Of a stretch of DNA of 64,000 nucleotides, positions 2,329-9,283 are shown piece by piece. Numbering within the stretch: position 1 is the first letter of the stretch; each line of letters starts with the position of its first letter. A program made the position numbers and the translations under genes. The notes below the pieces were generated by a model. The model was not told the DNA's origin. It saw nothing but the letters and a program-made list of their open reading frames with translations, and did no database searches. The DNA comes from Alphaproteobacteria bacterium (GTDB taxonomy: Bacteria > Pseudomonadota > Alphaproteobacteria > Micropepsales > Micropepsaceae): NCBI GenBank assembly GCA_016124635.1, contig WGNJ01000015.1:62001-126000 (forward strand). Direction: 5' to 3'.

Positions 2329-3036
2329 TCAGTTCTTGAATGATTCGTCGAGCGCGTAGCCGGCCGAGCGAACAGTGCGAATCGGATCGTTCTGACCTGG
2401 CACGTTGAGCGCCTTGCGAAGCCGACCGATGTGAACGTCGACCGTCCTCGCCTCGACATAGACGTCTGAGCCCCAAACAGCGTCGAGCAATTGCTCGCGG
2501 CTGAAGACGCGTCCCGGATGCTGCATGAAGTGATCGAGCAGCCGGTATTCCGTAGGACCGAGGTGGATATCCTTTGCGCCGCGCCGCACCCGATGGGCCG
2601 ACCGGTCGACGCTGATATCGCCGAACGTCGCGACATCTTCCGCGAAGGCAGGCCGTATGCGGCGCAGCACCGCGCGCACGCGTGCCAATAGCTCCGTCAT
2701 CGAAAACGGCTTTGTGATGTAGTCGTCGGCGCCGGTGTCGAGCCCGCGGATGCGGTCACCCTCTTCGCCGCGCGCCGTCAGCATGATCACCGGCATGTTG
2801 CGTGATTCGGCGCGGCCGCGCAGTCGTCGGCAGACTTCGATGCCGGAGATCTTCGGCAACATCCAGTCGAGCAGCACGAGATCCGGCGTCTCTTCGTCGG
2901 CCAGGATCATGGCTTCTTCGCCGTCGCGTGCTTCCGATACGCGATAGCCTTCCTTCTCCAAATTGTAGCGCAGCAATGTTGTCAGTGGCATCTCGTCTTC
3001 GACCACGAGAACCAGCGGCTTCTTTGCGACACTCAT
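2329..3036 (-). CDS. phoB: Phosphate response regulator PhoB
   Basis: 235-residue OmpR/PhoB-type regulator. The receiver domain (about 8-120) has the acidic pair in VVEDE, phosphoacceptor Asp57 in LVLLDWMLP and the conserved lysine in ITKPFS. The C-terminal winged helix (about 130-230) carries LGPTEYRLLDHFMQHPGRVF and DVHIGRLRKAL. The start at ATG 3036 (MSVAKKPLVLVVEDE) is the normal family start; the frame continues upstream into phoU without support. It follows phoU by 20 bases. Its partner kinase is encoded at 4015-6786, and a PHO box precedes phoU, so autoregulation is likely. Confidence 0.93.
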   Translation of the reverse strand: MSVAKKPLVLVVEDEMPLTTLLRYNLEKEGYRVSEARDGEEAMILADEETPDLVLLDWMLPKISGIEVCRRLRGRAESRNMPVIMLTARGEEGDRIRGLDTGADDYITKPFSMTELLARVRAVLRRIRPAFAEDVATFGDISVDRSAHRVRRGAKDIHLGPTEYRLLDHFMQHPGRVFSREQLLDAVWGSDVYVEARTVDVHIGRLRKALNVPGQNDPIRTVRSAGYALDESFKN

Positions 3037-3056: not shown

Positions 3057-3776
3057 TCAATGTTTGGGATCGTAGGCGACCGTCGTCGTCGACGTCGTGT
3101 CGCTCTTCGGTCGTTGATCGGTGATGCGCGTGCCGGTGACGAGGTAGTGCACCGTCTCGGCGATGTTCGTGGCGTGATCGCCCACGCGTTCGAAATTCTT
3201 GGCAATGAACAGAAGGTGCGTGGACTGACCGATCTTGCGCGGGTCTTCCATCATGTATGTCAGCAGCACGCGGAAGAGCGAGTTGTAGAGTTCGTCGATC
3301 TCTTCGTCGCGCCGCCAAACCGTAATTGCAGCCGCCGCATCGCGCCGCGCATAAGCGTCCAGCACGCTTTTCACCTGGCCGAGTGCCAAACGCCCCATGC
3401 GGCCGAGGCTTTGCGCTATCCCGGGCTCCGGCGCATCGCGCGACAAAACCAACGCGCGCTTTGCAACGTTCTTTGCCAGATCCCCGATGCGCTCGAGGTC
3501 CGAGGAGAGCTTCAGACCGGCCAGCGTCTCGCGCAGATCGTCTGCCATCGGCTGGCGCAGCGCGAGCAGACGTACGGCTTGCTGCTCGATCTGCTGTTCG
3601 AGCGCATCGATTCGAGCGTCCGCTGCTACGGTTTGCTCGGCGAGCGTCGAGTCGCGCCGCAATATGGCGTCGATGGCGTTGGCCAGCTGTGTTTCACACA
3701 AGCCGCCCATTTGCACGATGCCGGTGCTCAGCGCGTCGAGCTGATCTTGGAACGATTTGACGATGTGGTCGGCCAC
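3057..3776 (-). CDS. phoU: Phosphate signalling protein PhoU
   Basis: 239 residues, all helical, with the two-fold PhoU repeat: DALSTGIVQMGGLCETQLANAIDAI and the later ERIGDLAKNVAKRAL / ERVGDHATNIAETVHYLV motifs, whose acidic residues bind metal clusters in the family. PhoU normally links the Pst transporter to PhoR and damps PhoB activation under phosphate sufficiency. The GTG start at 3776 is supported by GGAGG seven bases upstream. It forms a two-gene unit with phoB. The pstSCAB genes that usually precede phoU are absent here. Confidence 0.95.
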   Translation of the reverse strand: MADHIVKSFQDQLDALSTGIVQMGGLCETQLANAIDAILRRDSTLAEQTVAADARIDALEQQIEQQAVRLLALRQPMADDLRETLAGLKLSSDLERIGDLAKNVAKRALVLSRDAPEPGIAQSLGRMGRLALGQVKSVLDAYARRDAAAAITVWRRDEEIDELYNSLFRVLLTYMMEDPRKIGQSTHLLFIAKNFERVGDHATNIAETVHYLVTGTRITDQRPKSDTTSTTTVAYDPKH

Positions 3777-3860: not shown

Positions 3861-3893
3861 AATTATGACAATTCAATTGCAGTTTTGTGACAG
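3861..3893 (-). promoter_or_regulatory. PHO box (three 11-base units) upstream of phoU-phoB
   Basis: Read on the minus strand there are three head-to-tail 11-base units: CTGTCACAAAA, CTGCAATTGAA and TTGTCATAATT. The known PhoB site is CTGTCAT repeated every 11 bases, so spacing and sequence both fit. The block ends 84 bases before the phoU start, consistent with a PhoB-activated promoter for phoU-phoB. Confidence 0.8.
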
Positions 3894-4014
3894 AGCGGCC
3901 GGTTAGGCGCAGAATTCGGCCCTTTGAGCATGGGTTCACGGGCCGTCCCGCCACCCGGTATCGGACGGGAGCCCCCGGCGCGGCGGAAGGATGTGTCTAG
4001 GCAGAAGTCGAAGA

Positions 4015-6786
4015 CTACGACGCCGTGAGCAACCCGGTCGGCGCCGATTCCGGCGAACCAGCCTCGGTGGCGAGCGGCAGGAAGACGGTGAACGTCGAAC
4101 CCTCGCCGACTTTGCTTTCGATGGCGAGCCGCCCGCGATGGCGATTGAGGATGTGCTTCACGATCGCCAGGCCAAGCCCCGTGCCGCCGATCGCCCGGCT
4201 GCGCCGCACGTCGACGCGATAGAACCGCTCCGTGAGACGAGGAATGTGCTCGCGCGCGATGCCCTCGCCGTGGTCCTTGACGGCGACATAGACGGCAGGC
4301 GAAGGCCCGGCTTCGCCCGGTCCGGCGCGCCTTGTGCCGAGCTCGACGGTGATCGGCATGCCGGGCTTGCCGTATTTGACTGCGTTGTCGATCAGGTTCG
4401 TGAACACCTGAATGAGCTCTTCGCGATCGCCGGCGACGTTCGGCAGCGACATCGGTTCGACCAAATCGATCGTCATGCGCCCGGCGTCGGCGACCGGCGT
4501 CAGCGCATTGGTCACCTCTTCGATGACGTCGCCGAGATTAATGCTGCCGGACGGCCGCACGTGCTCGTTCAACTCGATGCGGCTGAGCGACAAGAGGTCG
4601 TCGATCAATCGCCGCATGCGCGAAGCTTGCTCCGCCATGATGCCAAGGAAACGTTCGCGGGCCTCCGGATCATCCTTGGCGTGGCCGCGCAAGGTATCGA
4701 TGAAGCCCGTCAGCGAGGCCAAAGGCGTTCGCAATTCGTGGCTGGCATTGGCGACGAAGTCCGCGCGCATTTGCTCGACGCGGCGCGCCTTTGTCGTGTC
4801 TTGCAGCACGATCAGTGCTGCGCGCGGCTTGTTCTCCTCGCCTTCGACGGGGGCGATATAGGCCTGGAAGCTTTGCTCCGGCGTCGAGGCAATCGTGAAC
4901 TCGGCGCGCTGAGAACCCTTGCCCCCGAGCGCCGCATCGAGAGCCTCGAGCACCTGCGGCGCGCGGATCAAACTGGCGAGATGTTTGCGGGGTTCCGCCG
5001 AGCCGAACAGCGTCTCGAGCGCCGCGTTCGCGGCGACAATTCGGCCGTTCTGATCGGTGACGATCACTGGATCAGGCAAACGCTGCACGACGTCCGTGAT
5101 CGAAAAATCATCTGCTGCGCGCGCACTGGCCGGCTCCGGCGCCGCCTGGGCGGGCGGCTCTTCCACCGCCGCAGTAGTCGCACTTTGTGCGGCAACCGTA
5201 GGAGCCGGAAGACTGCGCACAAAACCAAGCCGGGCAAATGCGACGGTGGTCACGGCGATGGCGAGAACGAGACAGAAGAACCATTGCGCCGGGTTCCACA
5301 GTGCCAAGATTGCAAGCGCACCAAGGGCCGGGAACAGAGTCCACGTGATGTCGCCGGCCCGCACCCGAAGCGGGGTTCGCGGCTTGGGTGCCGGCGGAAC
5401 ACGAGCGGCCCTCGACTGCGCACGCGTCGAGCTTTGAGCTGTCGCGCCGGGGAAACTCGCGCTTCCTTCACTCGCACTCATCGTCAAACCCTGCTCCGCT
5501 CCGAGGATCCCATCCCCCAAGGATCTCCGCCGCGGCTCCCTTACATAAACCATCAGAATGACAGCGGCCCCCAACATAGCAAGCGTCGCCGCCGCAAATA
5601 CAGCTTCGTACCCCAAAGTTTGAATGAGACCGCCGCCGAGGATCGGTCCGATGGCTAGCACCAAGGATTGCGCGGAGTTAACCATCCCCAGCCGAAGCGG
5701 CAGATCCGCGCGCTTGCCGAATTCGAGCACCATGTTCTGCGAGGCCAATTGATAGCCCGCGTTGCCGACGCCGATCCCGACGAAGCAAATCTGGAACGCC
5801 TGCATCGTGGAAACGAACGGACAGGCAATCGTTGCTCCCGCCCAGATGAACAGCGCCGGAACAAAGACGCTTTTGAAACCGAGCCGGTCGGCGACAAAGC
5901 CCCAGAGCAAATTCGCCACCGTCAGCGAAATGAGCAGCGTCGATGTCAGCGGCCCGATCGTCGAGCCGGTAAGACCGAGCCGGTGGCCCGCATAGATGAT
6001 GTAGAACGGCAGCGCGAGCGCGCCTAACGTCGCCAGCGCTTGCGCTCCGAAATAGAGCGCGAACTGCGGATCCTCTCGCAACACAAATGGTATGTCGAGC
6101 AAGCGTTGGCGAATGCTGCTGGGCTCGCGCACCGACGGTGAATCAGGCTCGCGCACCAAGTTCAGAAACGTCAGCCCGATTGCCGTCAACACGAACGCCA
6201 CGAGGAACGTCGTCGCGTATCCGTTGCCCAATACGTTCCGCTCGACGAGTATCGTCGCGCCGTAGCCGGCGACCGCCGCCGCCGTCATCCCGCCCAGGAA
6301 GTTGCGCGCACCGAGCAGCATGCCGCGCCGGTTCGGCGGAATGGTCTTCGACATTAGCACGTTCCAGAGCACGTTCTGCATGCCCGAGAACACGCCGAGC
6401 AACGCCAAGCATAGAGCGAACGCCCAGAGCGAATATGGCGGCGGCACGAAGAAGGCGACCAGCGCCAGACCCAACACCGAGAGGCGCATCATCCCGCCGT
6501 AGAGAAACCCGAGCGGCAAGATGCGACGGCGATGCTCGATCATCGTGACGCCGAAGAGGCTCGAGGCGAATGCGCCGAGCTGCTGCGACGCCAGAACCAA
6601 CCCGACGATCAGCGGCGAGCCAGAGAGAAGAAAGAGAAAGGCCGGAACGAATGTCGGCGTGTTGACCAGACGAAAGCCCGTCATAGCCAGCATGCCGTGC
6701 ATCAGCTGGCTCACATAATTGCGAGTCAGGTTCTTCGATACGGCTTGCTGGAACTGAGCTTCGGCTTCTGGGTCGTGCGCGTTCAC
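4015..6786 (-). CDS. phoR: MFS transporter fused in frame to PhoR-type sensor histidine kinase
   Basis: One open frame of 923 codons from GTG 6786. Residues about 30-418 form a complete two-half MFS permease with roughly twelve hydrophobic segments. Residues 420-478 are an Ala/Pro/Ser/Arg linker; 481-521 hold two further helices; 555-665 a PAS domain (RLPDPVIVTDQNGRIVAANAA). Residues 670-740 are HisKA with His683 in NASHELRTPLASL, and 780-906 the ATPase domain with NLIDNAVKYG, DHGEGI and GGTGLGLAIVKH. The second half alone (about 488 residues from ATG 5481) matches an ordinary alphaproteobacterial PhoR. No stop separates the halves. The GTG abuts the TAA of the upstream reductase gene, implying coupled translation. 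Either a real fusion or two products via internal initiation at 5481. Confidence 0.85.
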   Translation of the reverse strand: MNAHDPEAEAQFQQAVSKNLTRNYVSQLMHGMLAMTGFRLVNTPTFVPAFLFLLSGSPLIVGLVLASQQLGAFASSLFGVTMIEHRRRILPLGFLYGGMMRLSVLGLALVAFFVPPPYSLWAFALCLALLGVFSGMQNVLWNVLMSKTIPPNRRGMLLGARNFLGGMTAAAVAGYGATILVERNVLGNGYATTFLVAFVLTAIGLTFLNLVREPDSPSVREPSSIRQRLLDIPFVLREDPQFALYFGAQALATLGALALPFYIIYAGHRLGLTGSTIGPLTSTLLISLTVANLLWGFVADRLGFKSVFVPALFIWAGATIACPFVSTMQAFQICFVGIGVGNAGYQLASQNMVLEFGKRADLPLRLGMVNSAQSLVLAIGPILGGGLIQTLGYEAVFAAATLAMLGAAVILMVYVREPRRRSLGDGILGAEQGLTMSASEGSASFPGATAQSSTRAQSRAARVPPAPKPRTPLRVRAGDITWTLFPALGALAILALWNPAQWFFCLVLAIAVTTVAFARLGFVRSLPAPTVAAQSATTAAVEEPPAQAAPEPASARAADDFSITDVVQRLPDPVIVTDQNGRIVAANAALETLFGSAEPRKHLASLIRAPQVLEALDAALGGKGSQRAEFTIASTPEQSFQAYIAPVEGEENKPRAALIVLQDTTKARRVEQMRADFVANASHELRTPLASLTGFIDTLRGHAKDDPEARERFLGIMAEQASRMRRLIDDLLSLSRIELNEHVRPSGSINLGDVIEEVTNALTPVADAGRMTIDLVEPMSLPNVAGDREELIQVFTNLIDNAVKYGKPGMPITVELGTRRAGPGEAGPSPAVYVAVKDHGEGIAREHIPRLTERFYRVDVRRSRAIGGTGLGLAIVKHILNRHRGRLAIESKVGEGSTFTVFLPLATEAGSPESAPTGLLTAS

Positions 6787-7725
6787 TTATCGAAAGGTCA
6801 GTTTGTTGACTTCGTCCCAATCGCCGCGCGGCATCGCCCACGAGCCGGCGGCGACATTCGCCTCGACCTGCTCAGGCTTCGTAGCGCCGGCGATCACGGT
6901 GGCCACCGTCTTCTGCCCAAGCAGCCAGCTCACCGCAACGTCGAGAATGCCCTTGCCGCGCCCGCGCGCAAAGTCCTCAAGTTTCTCGACGATGGTAAAA
7001 TTCTCATCCGACAGCATGCGCTTGGCGGCGTCCGGATTGGCGGCCGCGCGCGAGTCGTTTGGCACCGGGGCGCCGCGGCGGTACTTACCGGTCAAAAGGC
7101 CCGAGGCCAGCGGGAAATAGGGGATGACGCCGACGCCGAAGTGCTCGGCGGCCGGAATGACCTCCCGCTCGATTCGCCGGTCGAGGAGATTGTAGTGGTT
7201 TTGCGCCGAGATGAACGGCGTGGTGCCCTTGGTCTTTGCCGTCCAAGCTGCATCGGCAAGCTGCCAGCCATTGAGATTGGACGAACCGGCGTAACGCACC
7301 TTGCCGGCGCGGACGAGCGTATCGAGCGCGGACAACGTCTCCTCGATCGGCGTCTTCGGATCGGGAAAATGCATTTGATAGAGATCGATGTAGTCCGTGC
7401 CGAGCCGGCGCAGGCTCGCTTCGACCGCGAGCATGATGTAGCGCCGGGAAGCGCCGCCTTCGTACTCGCCCTTTTGCATCGGCAGGCCGAACTTCGTCGC
7501 CAGCACGATGTCCTTGCGTCGCGCGCCGAGTGCCTTGCCCAAGTACTCCTCGGACAAGCCGCCCGAGTAAAAATCAGCTGTATCGAACGTGGTGACGCCG
7601 AGATCGAGGGCTTTATGAACGACCGTTCGCGTCTCTTCTTCGGAGCACCGCCGCCCGAAATTGTTGCAGCCGAGGCCGACCGCTGAAACCTTGAGACCTG
7701 AGTGTCCGAGTTGACGGTATTCCAT
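6787..7725 (-). CDS. Aldo/keto reductase
   Basis: 312-residue NADPH-dependent oxidoreductase of the AKR superfamily (YajO/Tas-like). Seen in the sequence: N-terminal EYRQLGHSGLKVSAVGLGCNNFG, the catalytic Asp/Tyr in TFDTADFYSGG, catalytic Lys in VLATKFG, and the barrel motif YIDLYQMHFPDP containing the active-site His. The C-terminal half has the cofactor-binding pattern (TVIAGATKPEQVEAN). The substrate cannot be read. It lies three bases after the dienelactone hydrolase gene and its TAA touches the GTG of the MFS-PhoR frame, so the three probably share one transcript. Confidence 0.9.
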   Translation of the reverse strand: MEYRQLGHSGLKVSAVGLGCNNFGRRCSEEETRTVVHKALDLGVTTFDTADFYSGGLSEEYLGKALGARRKDIVLATKFGLPMQKGEYEGGASRRYIMLAVEASLRRLGTDYIDLYQMHFPDPKTPIEETLSALDTLVRAGKVRYAGSSNLNGWQLADAAWTAKTKGTTPFISAQNHYNLLDRRIEREVIPAAEHFGVGVIPYFPLASGLLTGKYRRGAPVPNDSRAAANPDAAKRMLSDENFTIVEKLEDFARGRGKGILDVAVSWLLGQKTVATVIAGATKPEQVEANVAAGSWAMPRGDWDEVNKLTFR

Positions 7726-7728
7726 GAT

Positions 7729-8571
7729 CTACACCACGCCGTGCGATTTGAACCAATCGAGCGCCTTCGCCCAGCCGTCCTTCGCCGCCATCTCGTTATA
7801 GCTCGGGCGATAGTCGGCCAAGAACCCGTGCTCCGCTTCCGGATAAACGACGATTGTTGACTTGTCGTCGCCCACTGCCTTGAGCGCAGCGCGCATTTTT
7901 TCGATGTCGTCAGCGGTAATGCCCTTGTCGAGCCCGCCGTAGAGGCCGAGCACACGCCCTTTCATCTTGTCGGCGAGCGACACCGCTTGCAGCGGGCGCG
8001 GATGCTCGCCCTTACCGACGAGTCCGCCGTACCAAGCGACGCCCGCTTTGATGTTGGGATTGTGCGCCGTGTACAGCCAAACGATACGTCCGCCCCAACA
8101 GAACCCGGTGACGCCGAGCTTGTCGACGTTGCTGCCGTTGGCTGCCGCCCACTTGACCGTCGCGTCGAGATCGGAGAGCACGAGATCGTCGTCCACCTTC
8201 ATGACGATCTCCTCCACCAGCTTCTTGATGTCGGTGTATTTCGTCGCATCGCCGACTCGCGCGTAAAGCGACGGCGCTACTGCAAAATAGCCAAGCTTGG
8301 CGAAGCGCCGACAAACGTCTTTGACCCATTCGTGGATGCCGAAGATCTCTTGGATGACGAGCAGCGTCGGCAGATTGGTCTTGCCCGTGGGCATCGCGCG
8401 ATAGGCGGGTATTTCACCGTCGCTGACCGGGATTTTCACCTCGCCCGCCGTCAATCCGCTGTCGTCCGTCGTGATCGTCGCCGCCGATATCGGCTGCACC
8501 GACAACGCGAATCCTGTGCCCAAGGCCGTCACAGCAAAGGCGCGCCGATCGAGGACGAGATCTTTCGTCAT
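7729..8571 (-). CDS. Dienelactone hydrolase family protein with export signal
   Basis: 280-residue alpha/beta hydrolase. The catalytic triad is visible: Cys158 in GFCWGG, Asp215 in YGGLDKG and His248 in EAEHGF. Family members hydrolyse dienelactone or other carboxylic esters; the substrate here is unknown. The N terminus ([24 protein letters not shown]) looks like a Tat-type signal with a twin arginine, so the enzyme is probably periplasmic. ATG 8571 is preceded by AGAGGAA; a longer frame to 8898 has no ribosome site. First gene of the set dienelactone hydrolase - aldo/keto reductase - MFS-PhoR. Confidence 0.88.
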
Positions 8572-8773
8572 GGCAAGTTCCTCTCGCGAGAATGTGGATG
8601 CGTAGCGCATGAACGTGGGGCGCCCGCGCACCCGGTTGGCGTTGAACCTAGCAAACTCCGCTGGCTGCCCGCGAGAGGCCTGCGCCCGGCATCTGGATGT
8701 TTCGCTTTGTGGCATCCTCACGAGTTTGTGCACTGAATCAACCGGCTTGGCGTGTCTCACCCGCCGTGCAACC

Positions 8774-9283
8774 ATGAGCCGCATGCGTGGGGCATCTCTT
8801 CTTCTCGGCGTCTTGGCGCTGTTCGCGACGGTGTCGATCGCCGAGGCCGCCGATGCGCCGAAGGTCGATAAGATCGTCGTCGAAAAGGCCAACCACACAC
8901 TGACGCTGTATTCGCACGGCCAAGCGGTGAAGACTTATCGCGTTGCCATCGGTGTTGGCGCGCCCGGTCAAAAGATCGGCGGCGGTGACGACCGTACGCC
9001 CGAAGGGACCTACATCATCGACTCCAAGAACCCGAAGAGCGATTTCAACCGCGCGCTGCATATCTCCTATCCCAACGCAGCGGACCGCGAGCGTGCGCGC
9101 GAGCACGGTATGCGCGCGGGCGGCCTTATCGCCATTCACGGGACGCCGGATTGGATCGAGCGCATTCAGGATGCCGGCGAACATCCGGACTGGACGGCAG
9201 GCTGCATCGCCGTGCGCAACACCGAAATCAAAGAAATCTACGCTCTGGTTCCCGTCGGCACGCCGATCGAAATCAAGCCTTAA
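8774..9283 (+). CDS. L,D-transpeptidase (YkuD domain), exported
   Basis: 169 residues. A signal peptide (residues 1-26, ending SIAEAA) is followed by one YkuD domain with the catalytic signature: His122 in IAIHGTPDW and Cys144 in [13 protein letters not shown]. Such enzymes make 3-3 crosslinks in peptidoglycan or attach proteins to it; some act as murein endopeptidases. The start at ATG 8774 places the signal peptide at the N terminus; the upstream extension lacks support. It is divergent from the dienelactone hydrolase and overlaps the end of bioD by 11 bases tail to tail. Confidence 0.88.

Follow-up and report, generated by a model that had tools for sequence, protein, structure and literature searches.

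In the SLC5/STAC sensor kinases CbrA, CrbS and RpuS, a secondary transporter is fused N-terminally to a histidine kinase (PMC9100948), and in the ammonium sensor KsAmt5 an Amt transporter-like domain is fused to such a kinase (PMC8534201). UhpC is a receptor that senses glucose-6-phosphate and works with a separate kinase, UhpB (PMC8871633). The input of PhoR is believed to come from PstSCAB and PhoU, and physical contact with a transporter is believed to be required (PMC10055408). Moreover, a single gene may encode two protein forms, as was described for CheA-L/CheA-S and for other genes with internal starts (PMC11005335).

The window, i.e. the whole 64,000-nucleotide stretch of DNA that was analysed, carries on its minus strand a 923-codon open reading frame with a GTG start (4015..6786, the frame being conserved in relatives), in which the original prediction saw a complete MFS transporter joined to a complete PhoR. 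Both halves were indeed found in one stop-free frame. Pfam places MFS_1, PAS, HisKA and HATPase_c in this order on a single chain, and MFS_1, HisKA and HATPase_c are present in all ten fused homologues. The MFS domain (residues 19-418; 5533..6732, minus) has 12 predicted transmembrane helices and matches MFS_1 at 2.3e-29 (102.8 bits against a cut-off of 33.4). It is followed by a disordered, poorly conserved linker rich in Pro, Ala and Ser (residues 419-476; 5359..5532, minus). All the expected parts of PhoR then come in order on the same strand: a transmembrane hairpin (residues 477-524; 5215..5358), a PAS domain (residues 563-665; 4792..5100; PAS_4, 7.8e-9), a HisKA domain (4573..4767; 7.5e-19) whose phospho-acceptor His683 (4738-4740) is invariant in the alignment of fused homologues, and a HATPase_c domain (4069..4431; 3.3e-26). 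An AlphaFold model built with ten homologues has the 12 MFS helices at residues 20-414, a disordered stretch at 420-477 (pLDDT below 50), a two-helix hairpin at 472-521 (helices 472-497 and 499-521), a second disordered stretch at 521-561, and then the PAS fold and kinase core; as its pTM is 0.48 and its mean pLDDT 69, the relative placement of domains in it is uninformative. A 555-codon open frame that runs antisense to the kinase half (3991-5658, plus) is probably a by-product of GC-rich codon use.

A search for the same junction in related genomes, as had been proposed along with the original prediction, recovered it in the genus (g1) and in its sister genus g7. The fused frame is intact in 9 of the 11 genomes of g1 and in G016 of g7 (55-57% identity), which gives ten complete frames from independent assemblies, 55-83% identical to the window protein, more than chance could account for; the named records with the fusion are all metagenome assemblies of Alphaproteobacteria. 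The bridge from the MFS part to an internal Met measures 12-18 codons in the fusions, and its length differs by whole codons except in G004. In G007, contig ends interrupt the MFS part, and from there the frame is open into PhoR. In G004 (L062:6247-6353), a single additional base immediately ahead of the internal ATG puts MFS and PhoR in different frames; the ATG and its leader are retained despite the broken frame. As G004 stands beside G001 in the whole-protein tree, nested inside the genus (support 93/94), its split is either derived or a sequencing error, and we rejected the idea that it represents the ancestral state. Of the observations that had been named beforehand as able to overturn the fusion, two are not borne out. 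One of them, a stop hidden by a sequencing error, is unlikely since independent assemblies agree on the open frame. The other, relatives that all have separate mfs and phoR genes, was not encountered, as relatives of the same genus are fused; separate genes occur only outside g1 and g7, and in G004. Among 385 genomes sampled from the class and 398 from the phylum, no other fusion of this MFS family to a kinase was found at the thresholds used, and the long MFS frames seen there reflect upstream read-through or a GNAT domain, not kinase fusions. A second contig of the Rhodobiaceae Bin_29_10 assembly (L063:5001-5108) breaks off within 40 codons of the start of an mfs copy with 75% identity, which is possibly a strain variant or a broken duplicate.

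The surroundings of the fusion suggest how it may have arisen. Directly downstream lies phoU (3057..3776, minus; TIGR02135, 240.6 bits, above cut-off), followed by phoB (2329..3036, minus, likely start ATG 3036; TIGR02154, 353 bits, above cut-off), and throughout the family the order is phoR-phoU-phoB, then gcrA on the opposite strand, then argD. Synteny was read from the MFS, PhoU, DLH, AKR, GcrA and ArgD rows, with PhoR positions taken from a separate homology search. Upstream of the fusion there are an aldo/keto reductase gene (6787..7725, minus; identified by Pfam and synteny) and a DLH (YghX/dienelactone-hydrolase-like) gene (7729..8898, minus; NF041440, 1.4e-33, below cut-off, and synteny). 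In genera g6 and g4, too, phoR has the DLH gene upstream of it. The MFS gene of g1 and g7 sits between DLH and phoR, and by synteny no MFS gene was found at the phoR locus in other genera of the family, so that its insertion before phoR appears to be confined, within the family, to these two genera. Standalone MFS homologues, about 430-470 residues long, are present in 15 further genomes of the family and, here and there, in other families; they end 3 to about 50 residues past a conserved EPR motif, most of them within 15 (some from genus g5 at about 40-50), and in the fusions the frame continues beyond this motif, passes the internal Met and enters PhoR. The ancestor of the two sister genera probably acquired a gene of the standalone family between DLH and phoR, and this gene probably lost its stop, which would have joined it in frame to phoR.

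The aldo/keto reductase gene adjoins the fusion in G000, G002 and G016, and it was not found by synteny beside the remaining fusions whose upstream side is covered. Its TAA directly abuts the GTG of the fusion in the window (6784-6789), and in G016 the two overlap as GTGA (L045). GTG 6786 is without Shine-Dalgarno-like pairing (+0.7 kcal/mol), which, together with a stop touching or overlapping the start, is as expected for translational coupling. Between phoR and phoU (3861-3893, minus) we noted three units with 11-bp spacing, CTGTCAC-AAAA-CTGCAAT-TGAA-TTGTCAT, which resemble a Pho box, and pairs of similar units are present near the end of phoR in G001, G002 and G003. This suggests that phoU-phoB may be under PhoB control separate from that of the fusion.

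The original prediction carried the caveat that ATG 5481 could start a PhoR of normal length, and this caveat turned out to be well placed. The codon (Met436; 5479..5481, minus), proposed as the start of a separate 488-aa PhoR, is Met in 11 of 11 genus genomes, within a linker that is otherwise poorly conserved, and an AGGG resembling a Shine-Dalgarno sequence lies within the coding frame 7 nt before it (5489..5492, minus). Scored against an alphaproteobacterial-type 16S tail, predicted anti-Shine-Dalgarno pairing upstream of ATG 5481 amounts to -6.4 kcal/mol in the window sequence; at Met436 the mean over nine genus genomes is -6.9 kcal/mol, whereas the remaining in-frame Met codons average -3.0. 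A few codons upstream, at codon columns 428-430, mean pairing is the best of the whole gene, and column 436 ranks 14 of 880. A conserved in-frame start with such a leader is thus found in the genus, moderate in G002 (-4.1 kcal/mol), and in G016 the leader is weak (-2.5 kcal/mol). It needs to be mentioned that pairing of this kind can arise from codon choice, that such motifs are common inside genes, and that a comparison of codon identity, made in windows of 11 codons, showed nothing clear at the internal start as such. As both the ATG and its leader are conserved, a short PhoR is probably made too; ATG 5481 is probably a retained PhoR start, initiation at which would yield PhoR alone (about 53 kDa).

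Is the long chain produced as well? The dN/dS ratio is 0.10-0.17 for the MFS part and 0.04-0.09 for the kinase part, and the MFS half, which retains the residues invariant across the standalone family, is to judge from these values under purifying selection. No stop separates the MFS from the end of PhoR, so a ribosome that has translated all of the MFS has to continue into PhoR. Selection on an MFS half that has no stop of its own leads us to infer that these species do make the fusion chain, and we hold it to be highly likely that translation from GTG 6786 would give an MFS-PhoR protein of about 100 kDa. That one gene yields two products, of about 100 and 53 kDa, is a quite probable reading of the same sequences. 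The two forms could then share kinase dimers.

As to the kinase half, the NCBIfam PhoR model TIGR02966 covers residues 563-902 of the window protein at 325.7 bits, with 326-329 bits over all searches, which is just below its cut-off of 334.2; this cut-off is a strict one, passed by just one of 14 control genomes, and G002 passes it at 334.9 bits in the genome search. A genetic link to phoU and phoB is given by their place directly downstream and by synteny across the family. In G000 the fused gene scores 329 bits for PhoR and the next-best match 199.7, and at E <= 1e-60 a single PhoR is found in every one of the 11 genus genomes, all of which points to the fused gene as the only clear phoR of each genus genome. 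A canonical pstSCAB operon lies intact elsewhere in the genome (G000:C5), and loss of Pst as the cause of the fusion was rejected on account of its presence. As pstSCAB and phoU are both retained, the phosphate input to PhoR is probably kept. The simplest model leaves this input as it is and lets the MFS come on top of it, whether as a further input, as a means of co-location or as a passenger that is tolerated. We also observed short canonical PstC in G000 and G002; in G001, G004-G007, G009, G010 and G016 the best PstC-like matches lie in long frames (about 437-895 codons) with a different pst arrangement, so that a single genus seems to alternate between two Pst types.

The nearest solved MFS proteins by profile are NorA (E 1.2e-9) and EmrD (1.6e-8), both matches being half-length, and the nearest by fold are vesicular amine transporters and OxlT. 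A role as a phosphate or organophosphate carrier found no support, as scores for the organophosphate families stayed far below cut-offs (PgtP, 48.6 bits against 407.75; UhpT, 20.7 against 497) and the nearest profiles were those of NorA and EmrD. Genomic contexts of standalone homologues are varied and include RND efflux genes; in L048, L100, L103, L110, L113 and L114 the standalone gene has AcrB-like RND pump genes as neighbours, frequently together with a membrane-fusion gene. Taken together, the profile match, the RND neighbours and the low organophosphate scores favour an exporter-like function of the MFS half over phosphate uptake. Members of the same MFS family carry a C-terminal GNAT acetyltransferase domain in two other families of Alphaproteobacteria (L106:5518-7428 and L107:6270-8075).

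The explanation that in our opinion best accounts for these observations together, and which we regard as probable on balance, is that an MFS gene was inserted next to phoR and joined to it, that long and short products are both made, and that the phosphate input is kept, with the MFS adding to it. PhoR would retain its PhoU- and Pst-linked phosphate input, and the tethered transporter would contribute a second, non-phosphate input or else fixed co-location and dosage. That the state of the transporter alters kinase output is possible, but we consider this step a tentative one.

Several alternatives need to be weighed. One of them, unlikely in our view though the most serious contender, is that the mfs stop was lost and the fusion is tolerated, the MFS merely transports, and PhoR signals mainly via the short form from ATG 5481. 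This would agree with the conserved internal start, with the unconserved and disordered linker, with G004, which, if its extra base is real, lives with the frames apart, and with the GNAT domain borne C-terminally by the same MFS family elsewhere. What speaks against it is that the fused frame is open in 11 of 12 lineages despite several changes of linker length, all of them multiples of three.

On the other hand, the MFS and PhoR might form a true transceptor, in which substrate binding or flux directly switches the kinase, as in CbrA or KsAmt5, possibly replacing the Pst input. The covalent join involves the only PhoR and is conserved in the genus and in g7, PhoR is believed to depend on a separate transporter when it senses phosphate (PMC10055408), and the Amt and SLC5 fusions are precedents. 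However, both pstSCAB and phoU have been retained, the MFS is more like NorA/EmrD-type exporters than like phosphate carriers, a long and disordered linker joins the halves, Pfam found no STAC-like coupling domain, and the internal start is kept. We therefore find this reading doubtful. The original prediction stands in so far as the conserved fusion is real and involves the sole clear phoR, but its further proposal of a phosphate- or metabolite-sensing transceptor found no support, as the MFS is nearest to exporters and pstSCAB and phoU are still there, which leaves a phosphate transceptor unproven. More speculative still is a dual-start gene giving tethered and free PhoR, whose mixed dimers might let the flux or ligand state of the exporter-like MFS tune the phosphate-starvation response; in the Pho regulon, no transporter kinase of MFS type would have come before it.

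It is also conceivable that only separate proteins act, the long chain being a mere precursor that is cleaved in the linker. A linker of about 58 residues, disordered and variable, would allow this, and proteolysis there could part the halves after synthesis. Yet no cleavage motif is conserved in the linker, and a cell that obtained its PhoR by cleavage would have no need of a conserved internal start, which makes this scenario improbable. Finally, an assembly or sequencing error that conceals a stop between two ordinary genes has next to no likelihood and is refuted for the group, for although all named sequences come from metagenome assemblies, ten complete and divergent frames agree and the lone exception, G004, is itself a single-base case.

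Compared with the systems known so far, the window protein resembles the SLC5/STAC kinases in layout, as in both a secondary-transporter domain lies N-terminal to a histidine kinase in one chain. However, those kinases have SLC5 and STAC, and here there are an MFS, a disordered linker and a kinase which is PhoR beside phoU-phoB; by Pfam, neither SSF nor STAC domains were found in the window protein or its fused homologues. KsAmt5 likewise has a transporter-like domain fused to a histidine kinase, but its fold is that of Amt and it is specific for ammonium, whereas the window protein has an MFS, no Amt domain found by Pfam, and a probable second, short kinase product. UhpC, a transporter-like protein of the MFS, is paired with a membrane histidine kinase as the MFS half is here, but UhpC and UhpB are two proteins, and the single chain seen here belongs to another MFS subfamily. 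The drug:H+ antiporters NorA and EmrD, nearest by profile among solved structures (E about 1e-9 over half of the protein), differ in that the MFS is here fused to a kinase. The kinase half is like PhoR of E. coli and Salmonella, a membrane PAS-HisKA-HATPase protein with no sizable outer domain, but that PhoR is without a transporter domain and depends on PstSCAB-PhoU (PMC10055408). As for the two proposed products, a long kinase and an N-terminally shortened one from an internal start recall CheA-L/CheA-S, though CheA is soluble and the long form here would add a whole 12-helix transporter. No precedent for an MFS-kinase or MFS-PhoR fusion was found in the literature searched, the coverage of which leaves out most subscription journals. 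For the question of how PhoR reads phosphate, a natural and conserved tether to a different transporter would make communication from transporter to PhoR directly testable. Besides SLC5 and Amt, the MFS would then count among the transporter types fused to kinases, here with two products built into the arrangement.
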